Below, piece by piece: positions 4,100 to 56,774 of a stretch of 64,000 nt of DNA (its first letter is position 1; each line of letters begins with the position of its first letter). Source of the DNA: Pseudomonadota bacterium (GTDB lineage Bacteria > Pseudomonadota > Gammaproteobacteria > UBA1113). The stretch lies in contig JAJXVU010000011.1 of the NCBI GenBank assembly GCA_021781965.1, positions 1 through 64,000 of the forward strand, in the 5' to 3' direction. The notes beneath the pieces were generated by a model. That model ran no database searches. It saw only the letters and a list, made by a program, of their open reading frames with translations, and was not told where the DNA came from. The position numbers and the translations under genes were made by a program.

Positions 4100-4212
4100 G
4101 TAACTACTCGCGCTTTGTACTAAGAAAAACGTATATTGGATAGATTAGAGTATATCTTCGCCTTTCTCGCCCTTTCAGTCGCGGCTCGGTTAATCCATTT
4201 ATAACCGAGCCG
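4100..4212. repeat. Miniature repeat, GTAACTACTC family, copy A
   Basis: Begins with GTAACTACTCG at 4100 and carries the family core (AAGAAAAAC, a TATATT tract, then GTCGCGGCTCGGTT). It ends in a 12-bp hairpin, GCGGCTCGGTTA at 4181-4192 against TAACCGAGCCGC at 4202-4213. The right-hand GAGTAGTTAC end seen in other copies is missing. It sits between two convergent genes, so the hairpin could act as a two-way terminator. Related copies lie at 20605, 23291, 47872, 53806 and 56699. Confidence 0.8.
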
Positions 4213-20604: not shown

Positions 20605-20650
20605 GTGACTACTCTTCCTATCCGCTCCCTGACGGTCGCGGCTCGGTTAA
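20605..20650. repeat. Miniature repeat, GTAACTACTC family, copy B (partial)
   Basis: Starts with GTGACTACTC (one mismatch to the family end) and carries CCGCTCCCTGACGGTCGCGG followed by CTCGGTT. The central AAGAAAAAC/TATATT part is deleted. It lies between csrA and the terminator of the upstream transcript, so it may lie in the csrA leader. Confidence 0.65.
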
Positions 20651-23269: not shown

Positions 23270-23631
23270 ATTTGGCGCTTAAGGTTATTAGTAACTACTC
23301 ACCCTAATGACCTAGTCCCGGTTATAAAGGGATAAATCGAGCCGCGACCGTCAGGGAGCGGAAAGTGAAAATATATGCTAATCTATCCAGTATAGGTTTT
23401 TCTTATTACATGGTACGAGTAGTTACGGTTATTAAAGCACTCAATAAGCAACTTCTCTAAGAGGGCTTTATTCGCTTCGGTGAGGCTAGAGACCATTGTA
23501 GCTTCAACTTTACCAATGACTTTATGTGCTTGTTGTACAACTTTCATGCCTTGTTTTGTTAATTCCGTGCAAAGAATCCTACCATGTTGTGGATCACCTT
23601 TCCGTTTAACTAAAGCGAGATACGATTCATA
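23266..23631 (-). pseudogene. MarR-family regulator fragment split by a miniature element
   Basis: On the minus strand, 23631-23435 encodes the winged-helix wing and C-terminal dimer helices of a MarR regulator (LVKRKGDPQHGRILCTELT, then MVSSLTEANKALLEKLL). An in-frame TAG and loss of the N-terminal half show it is dead. The element at 23291-23426 interrupts the last codons. Removing it with one 8-bp repeat copy restores the reading CFNNLKRQI and a TAA at 23266, a natural MarR ending. Confidence 0.8.
23291..23426. mobile_element. Miniature inverted-repeat element, GTAACTACTC family, copy C, with target duplication
   Basis: 136 bp with perfect 10-bp inverted ends, GTAACTACTC (23291-23300) and GAGTAGTTAC (23417-23426). 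It is flanked by GGTTATTA on both sides (23283-23290 and 23427-23434), an exact 8-bp target-site duplication. It has no coding capacity, so it must be moved by a transposase elsewhere. It lies in the opposite sense to copy A. Confidence 0.92.
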
Positions 23632-23839: not shown

Positions 23840-25396
23840 ATGACCACTACAGCTCCCCATCGACCTTTGGTATTGATCGTCCTGGACGGCTGGGGATACC
23901 GCGAAGAAACCAAATATAACGCCATTGCCCAAGCCAAAACACCGCATTGGGACTATTTATGGGCGAAATACCCTCATATGTTGCTCAATGGCTCCGGCTT
24001 GGCCGTGGGCTTACCCGAAGGGCAAATGGGCAATTCCGAGGTTGGTCACACCAATTTAGGCTCGGGACGCATTGTCTATCAAGACAGCGTACGCATAGAA
24101 AACGCCATTGCCGATGGCTCGTGGTGTGACAATACCGCTTTCAACGATTTCTTTAAATAAGTGAAACAGCATGACAGTACCTTGCATGTCTTAGGTTTAT
24201 TATCGCCCGGCGGTGTACACAGTCATGAACAACACATTTATGCCTTATTGCGCTTAGCGGCACAAAAGAAAGTAACGCGCGTGGTAATACATCCTATTTT
24301 AGATGGTCGCGACACACCGCCACAAAGCGCTGAAAATTCCTTGCGTTTTCTGATGGGCTTAACAGAAAGTTTAGGCAATGCTTCCATAGGCTCACTAATA
24401 GGTCGTTATTATGCCATGGACAGAGATCAACGCTGGGAGCGCGTTGCTAAGGCTTATGATCTATATACCATGGGCAGTGCCGAACATACGGCTGCCAATG
24501 CATTAGATGCTTTACAATGGGCTTATGCGCAAAAACAAAATGATGAGTTTGTATCACCCATCGCCATTGCTGCTAAAGCGGGCACCTCGCATATCATTCG
24601 CGACAACGATGCGATTATTTTCATGAACTTTCGTGCGGATCGTGCACGCGAATTATCGTTAGCATTTACAGACAAAAATTTTACTGGCTTTAAACGCGAA
24701 CAGTTTCCAAAATTAAGTGATTTTGTCAGCCTTACTCAATATCAAAAAGGTTTAAACGCCCATATCGCTTTTGCGCCACAAAACTTAAACGATACTTTAG
24801 CGCAAATCTTAAGTCAGCATCATTATAAACAATTTCGTTTAGCGGAAACGGAAAAATACGCCCACGTTACTTTCTTTTTTAATGGCGGCAGAGAAGAGCC
24901 TTGTGAAGGTGAAACACGACAGTTGATTGCCTCTCCTAGAGTGGCTACTTATGATCTGCAACCTGAAATGAGTGCTAAAACATTGACGGATGCTTTAGTC
25001 GATGCCATTAGTAGTAATCAGCACGATTTTATTTTGTGTAACTACGCCAACGCCGATATGGTGGGACATAGCGGTGATTTTGCTGCTACGGTGAAAGCGA
25101 TTGAAGCTTTAGATGAGGCCATAGGTAGAATCACTGCGGCTATAGAAAAAGTAGACGGCGAATTGTTGATAACCGCCGACCATGGCAATGCGGAATGTAT
25201 GTTTGATGAGATGACGCAACAACCGCATACCGCACATACCACAGGCCCTGTGCCTTTAATCTATGTAGGCAAACGTGGCCGCTTTTTGTATCCAGAAGGT
25301 ATTTTAGCGGATATAGCCCCTACTATTTTACGCTTATTTGATCTGCCTCAGCCCAAGGCGATGACAGGGAAAGTATTATTAGATATTCTTTCATAG
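23840..25396 (+). pseudogene. gpmI: 2,3-bisphosphoglycerate-independent phosphoglycerate mutase, interrupted by an in-frame stop
   Basis: Glycolytic enzyme converting 3- to 2-phosphoglycerate, of the alkaline-phosphatase-fold, two-Mn type. The N-terminal part has the metal Asp in [10 protein letters not shown] and the catalytic Ser in [14 protein letters not shown]. The rest (LLSPGGVHSHEQHIYALL, ILDGRDTPP, ITADHGNAE) continues in the same frame after a TAA at 24158-24160. One base change (for example CAA to TAA) explains it; everything else is intact. A GTG follows the TAA directly, so re-initiation could give two chains, but neither alone holds a full active site. Sequencing error is possible. 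Followed by envC and ctpA, a common gammaproteobacterial order. Confidence 0.85.
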
Positions 25397-47871: not shown

Positions 47872-47962
47872 GTAACTACTCGAACCATGTTGGAAGAAAA
47901 ACATATATTGGGTATATCGAAGTATATCCATCCTTCCGCTCCCTCACGGTCGCGGCTCTGTT
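47872..47962. repeat. Miniature repeat, GTAACTACTC family, copy D
   Basis: GTAACTACTCG at 47872, then AAGAAAAACATATATTGGGT, a TATAT tract, and CCGCTCCCTCACGGTCGCGG followed by CTCTGTT. The right inverted end is not recognisable. It is inserted between lgt and thyA, so it may change thyA expression. Confidence 0.75.
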
Positions 47963-53805: not shown

Positions 53806-53891
53806 GTAACGGCTCTCCCCTGCTTTCTAGTGAAGATATACTTTAGTCTATCGAATATAAGTTTTTCTTACTACAAGGCGCGAGTAGTTAC
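53806..53891. mobile_element. Miniature repeat, GTAACTACTC family, copy E
   Basis: 86 bp, reversed relative to copy A. Left end GTAACGGCTC, right end GAGTAGTTAC (53882-53891), with AGTTTTTCTTAC inside. It lacks the CGGCTCGGTT hairpin. Flanks AAATAGTT (53798-53805) and ACATAGTT (53892-53899) agree at 7 of 8 bases, consistent with a decayed 8-bp target duplication. Confidence 0.78.
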
Positions 53892-56698: not shown

Positions 56699-56774
56699 GT
56701 AATAACTCTCTCCCTCCGCGCCCTTTCAGTCGCGGCTCGGTTCATCCGTTTGCAACCGAGCCGTGAATAGTTAC
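56699..56774. mobile_element. Miniature repeat, GTAACTACTC family, copy F
   Basis: 76 bp with ends GTAATAACTC and GAATAGTTAC and the hairpin CGGCTCGGTT (56733-56742) / AACCGAGCCG (56754-56763). Flanks TTTAAAAG and TTTTAAAG agree at 7 of 8 bases, consistent with an 8-bp target duplication. It sits between the DUF523 stop and the end of the converging 476-aa gene, where the hairpin could act as terminator. Confidence 0.8.

Follow-up and report, generated by a model that had tools for sequence, protein, structure and literature searches.

The 136-bp stretch at 23291-23426 of the window (the whole 64,000-nucleotide stretch of DNA analysed) is almost certainly a non-autonomous miniature element (MITE) belonging to the ISBst12 (single-ORF) group of the IS66 family. 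Judged from its sequence and that of its relatives, it was most likely moved by an IS66 transposase made elsewhere. According to this model, the transposase would bind the GTAACTACTC ends and join them to an 8-bp staggered cut, and repair of this cut by the host would leave the GGTTATTA duplication. An anonymous intergenic repeat is thereby tied to a defined transposase group. For a sister copy at the iscU start codon behind iscS, insertion is proven at the nucleotide level.

Structure of the window element

The element starts with GTAACTACTC and ends with GAGTAGTTAC, together forming perfect 10-bp inverted ends, and it is bordered by an exact 8-bp duplication, GGTTATTA. No ORF of at least 100 aa overlaps it, and neither a sigma-70 promoter nor an intrinsic terminator was found within the 136 bp. 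A non-coding element with perfect ends and an exact 8-bp duplication was what the sequence-only reading had described, and the sequence confirms it. Inverted repeats, target-site duplications and a size of about 50-600 bp without a transposase gene are the properties of a MITE, and all of them are present. The end itself is overrepresented: GTAACTACTC occurs 11 times in the window when up to one mismatch is allowed, whereas shuffled versions of the window averaged 2.2 such matches and never exceeded 7. The parts of the element are as follows.

23283-23290, no strand: target-site duplication, left copy, GGTTATTA
23291-23426, + strand: the 136-bp MITE; nine full-length copies in the genome, the other eight being 86-98% identical to the window copy
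23291-23300, + strand: left terminal inverted repeat GTAACTACTC, continuing with ACCCTAAT as in the ends of ISBst12-group IS
23339-23361, + strand: internal GC-rich hairpin motif GAGCCGCGACCGTCAGGGAGCGG, REP-like, about 126 in the genome
23417-23426, - strand: right terminal inverted repeat; the + strand reads GAGTAGTTAC
23427-23434, no strand: target-site duplication, right copy, GGTTATTA

As a single strand the element folds strongly (z -4.1). Since this fold is mostly made up of the inverted ends and the internal hairpin, we did not adopt a reading as functional RNA.

In view of the internal hairpin, one might suspect a palindromic REP/BIME-type repeat whose spread depends on a RAYT (HUH) transposase. 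The genome contains the motif, GAGCCGCGACCGTNAGGGAGCGG, about 126 times if one mismatch is tolerated; three occurrences lie in the window (20622-20644, 23339-23361 and 47936-47958), and in the congener G001 the motif often forms inverted pairs. The element thus resembles REP/BIME in that its interior holds a GC-rich hairpin motif which is itself repeated in the genome. Its boundaries, inverted ends and 8-bp duplications, in contrast, are those of a DDE transposon: duplication and empty site are defined at GTAACTACTC and not at the hairpin, and the motif is also found without GTAACTACTC ends. REP-type repeats are not known to have inverted ends of the IS66 type or 8-bp duplications. Membership in REP/BIME, which would imply boundaries at the hairpin motif and no target duplication, was rejected and is highly improbable. 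The hairpin motif is probably a separate REP-type repeat carried as a passenger, and the whole interior of the element, the REP-like hairpin included, would be passenger DNA.

Dispersed copies and empty insertion sites

Searched with the element, the 2.1-Mb draft genome to which the window belongs gave 53 matches, nine of them full length, so that it occurs in multiple dispersed copies as a MITE does; these genome-wide counts rest on searches and retrieved loci. Many of the other matches are one-ended or rearranged. When two-ended elements (ends with at most two mismatches in total) were counted in the retrieved stretches, 27 distinct ones were obtained. Six had flanks matching at 8/8 and seven at 7/8 positions, i.e. 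13/27 at 7/8 or better, whereas randomly paired flanks gave 0.8% (perfect) and 1.3% (7/8). Perfect duplications in the genome include GGTTATTA, TCTCCCGC, CTATTTGC and ATGTATAA. The relatives within the window are listed below.

4100-4207, - strand: one-ended relative, 81% identical over query positions 29-136, other end lost
47872-47958, - strand: one-ended relative, 79% identical over query positions 49-136
53806-53891, + strand: second two-ended relative, 86 bp, flanks AAATAGTT/ACATAGTT matching at 7/8
56699-56774, - strand: third two-ended relative, 76 bp, degenerate ends, flanks TTTAAAAG/TTTTAAAG matching at 7/8

The last two, with their 7/8 flanks, are exactly as first proposed. The proposed family of copies in the window stands in so far as it is multicopy and includes real two-ended copies, but several members, such as those at 4100-4207 and 47872-47958, are one-ended or rearranged and not intact.

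A comparison of filled and empty sites was possible for a sister copy (L008, 1493-1645) between iscS and iscU, gene names that were assigned from inspecting the translations. The start codon of iscU lies within the duplication of this copy, ATGTATAA. In the congener G003, whose IscS is 81% identical, the iscS-iscU junction (...GATGTATAATGAACAA...) holds one uninterrupted ATGTATAA, as opposed to ATGTATAA-element-ATGTATAA here. This empty site with a single 8-mer supports the proposal of transposition with an 8-bp stagger. Between folC and cvpA there is another copy. The same two genes in G003 and G001 are separated by a short spacer with no element, i.e. the site is empty as judged by gene adjacency. 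Neither both repeats at an empty site, nor a lack of related IS ends, nor inheritance of all copies in place was seen. A search of four congeners did not find the element itself; the internal hairpin motif was found there.

These observations also bear on the idea of a chance inverted repeat or an inherited, immobile regulatory element. No duplication is recognisable around L002, L004 and L009, three of the nine full-length copies, and all full-length copies examined are intergenic, as such an element might be. However, the copies are multiple and dispersed, the duplications are specific to length 8 and the congener site is empty, and we consider this idea next to impossible.

At the iscS-iscU site, the insertion recreates the iscU start codon through the duplication, and 137 bp of element DNA separate the adjacent genes. 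From this arrangement, an effect of the copy on iscU expression is possible. When an empty site for the window copy, which lies in an AAA-ATPase/gpmM neighbourhood, was sought through gpmM in three congeners, gpmM alone proved to be conserved, and the gene upstream of gpmM differed. The window's gpmM (phosphoglycerate mutase, 23840-25396) is interrupted by a TAA that lies in frame at 24158-24160. The three congeners examined show no such interruption, which leaves a nonsense mutation or a sequence error as the explanation.

Candidate transposases

The assembly encodes one IS66-family transposase (P0001, C30; 478 aa, a single intact ORF, NCBIfam IS66 equivalog). The resident IS66 has the ends GTAACAGCTC, which agree with those of the element at 8/10 positions, and a perfect 8-bp duplication, CACGATAT; ends and duplication length pointed to the IS66 family. 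Autonomous single-ORF IS66 elements with the ends of the window element were found in the same genus and beyond. The congener G002 (L092) carries a 468-aa IS66 transposase, P0002, between GTAACTACTCAGGCC and (G)TAACTACTCACCCC. In the Pseudomonadales MAG NORP332 (L233), a 1706-bp IS66 starts and ends with GTAACTACTCAGCG and is flanked by the duplication TTGCGATA; this genome also carries miniature elements with the same ends as its IS66. Thus, the search for a full IS with the element's ends, which had been suggested as a check, succeeded in relatives, but no exact-ended IS66 was found in the window's own draft genome. The same elements support the proposal that the transposase is encoded elsewhere.

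The assignment to the ISBst12 group is based on a comparison with more than ten IS66 elements. The end GTAACTACTCACCC starts with GTAA and is of the GTAACTRYTCA type, and the target-site duplication is 8 bp long as in this group. Perfect 8-bp duplications together with the same type of end were seen in elements on plasmids, namely Vibrio pVb1636 (GTAACTATTCACCCA), ISGst1 (GTAACTATTCACCCC), ISAs21 (GTAACTGTTCACCCA) and ISUnCu16 (GTAACGGTTCACCCA). A 1250-bp derivative in Candidatus Thiomargarita nelsonii also has the same ends, together with IS66 gene fragments only and the duplication CATTTGAC. ISDge4 of the ISBst12 group, with the ends GTGACTACTCAGCA/GTAACTGCTCAGCA, was reported to transpose with an 8-bp repeat (PMC12898284). 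The element resembles IS66 only in the outermost 15-18 bp or so of its ends. Several IS66 loci in which the script found no clear ends, including ISKpn15, ISGka4 and Acaryochloris, were left out of this comparison.

The element might instead be moved by the resident IS66, an explanation that differs from ours in the enzyme only. The assembly holds no IS66 transposase besides P0001, whose ORF is intact and whose element shares 8/10 end positions and the length of the duplication. Yet the two exact-ended transposases, from G002 and NORP332, are 43% identical to each other and only about 27% to P0001, which makes the resident IS the less likely mobiliser. Exact ends accompany a distinct transposase in the congener and one of the P0002 type in an unrelated genome too. 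We therefore regard mobilisation by P0001 as unlikely. A P0002-like transposase would be the better candidate, as suggested by the shared ends. Because the sole assembled IS66 has different ends and a distant transposase, the true mobiliser has probably been lost from this genome or is unassembled. Searches with P0001 of genome contigs and viral contigs, and with P0002 of viral contigs, returned no relatives.

Three further loci deserve mention. In G002, a group II intron-like sequence (GTGCGTCCAGCG...) extends from position 1681 of L092, starting one base before the right terminus of the IS66, and has a reverse-transcriptase-like ORF from 2135. G008 (L096), a genome of the same family, carries an IS66 with GTAACTACTT at both sides and no target duplication. 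A 567-aa frame with weak resemblance to IS66 was seen in G383 (L239); it is flanked by long inverted ends, GTAACTTCTCATTAACCC, and possibly represents a divergent IS66-like group.

Relation to known elements

MITEs and IS66 are both already known, and the window element is a new example. It shares with the ISBst12 group (ISGst1, ISAs21, ISUnCu16 and ISDge4) ends near GTAACTRYTCA(C/G)CC and 8-bp duplications. Whereas these IS encode a single transposase of about 450-480 aa, the element is 136 bp long and non-coding and has the terminal 15-18 bp or so in common with them. Tn3-derived miniature elements have a 5-bp duplication and GGGG-type ends; the 8-bp duplication and GTAAC ends led us to reject this origin.

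Several bacterial MITEs have been associated with IS: MITEPye1 with IS1182, MITEPsy1 with a possible IS5 and a Cardinium MITE with ISCca4 (PMC11578231, PMC3189936, PMC9769881). Like the window element they are short, non-coding and repeated, have inverted ends and are thought to be moved in trans, but they belong to other IS families and have other ends, while the window element follows IS66. The bacterial MITEs described in the accessible literature belong to other families or have no assigned parent; ISfinder and subscription papers lay outside this search, and an earlier description of an IS66 MITE is possible. IS66 finds no mention in a 2024 review on the MITEs of prokaryotes (PMC10969869). 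In the literature searched, we found no printed occurrence of GTAACTACTCA in an IS or MITE context.

Distribution across bacterial genomes

IS66-type MITEs are common across phyla, though absent from that recent review. Scanning 85,000 GTDB species genomes for the exact pattern GTAACTACTC-N(100-130)-GAGTAGTTAC yielded at least 119 stretches, whereas chance would account for about 2-11, the number varying with base composition; as the scan demanded exact 10-bp ends, this number carries no information on end conservation. The record labels among the matches listed, single ones of which may be affected by MAG contamination, include Chloroflexi/Anaerolineae, cyanobacteria, Nitrospinota, Desulfobacterales, Cyclobacteriaceae, Elusimicrobia, Bacillota and one Altarchaeum MAG, as well as several Gammaproteobacteria (Methylobacter, Thiomargarita and Nitrococcus). 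Among the matches listed, 120 elements had readable flanks. The 8-bp duplication was perfect in 60 of these and matched at 7/8 in 23 more, and every other length from 4 to 14 gave at most one perfect duplication.

Sorted by interior sequence together with the window element, the matches listed fall into about 60 groups, and the window element is alone in its group. BLAST of its interior against the 121 listed GTDB elements gave no match. An IS66 transposase scored above the family cut-off in 14 of 26 such genomes or records, a set that includes the Vibrio plasmid as a reference, and many of these matches were fragments. Hence, a cognate IS has yet to be assigned to most of the GTDB MITEs. We tentatively suggest that IS66/ISBst12-type MITEs with the end GTAACTACTCA constitute a very large class that spans bacterial phyla, with one Altarchaeum-labelled record in addition, and that has gone largely unrecognised. 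In this class, unrelated interiors would be combined with interchangeable ends. If so, an incoming IS66 could mobilise the resident MITEs of a foreign lineage. The two ends provide a simple 20-base signature for finding IS66-type MITEs and pairing them with transposases. Among the matches listed, the base after the 10-bp end, a position outside the search pattern, is A in 230 of 242 ends, and A/T is preferred in the middle of the duplications.
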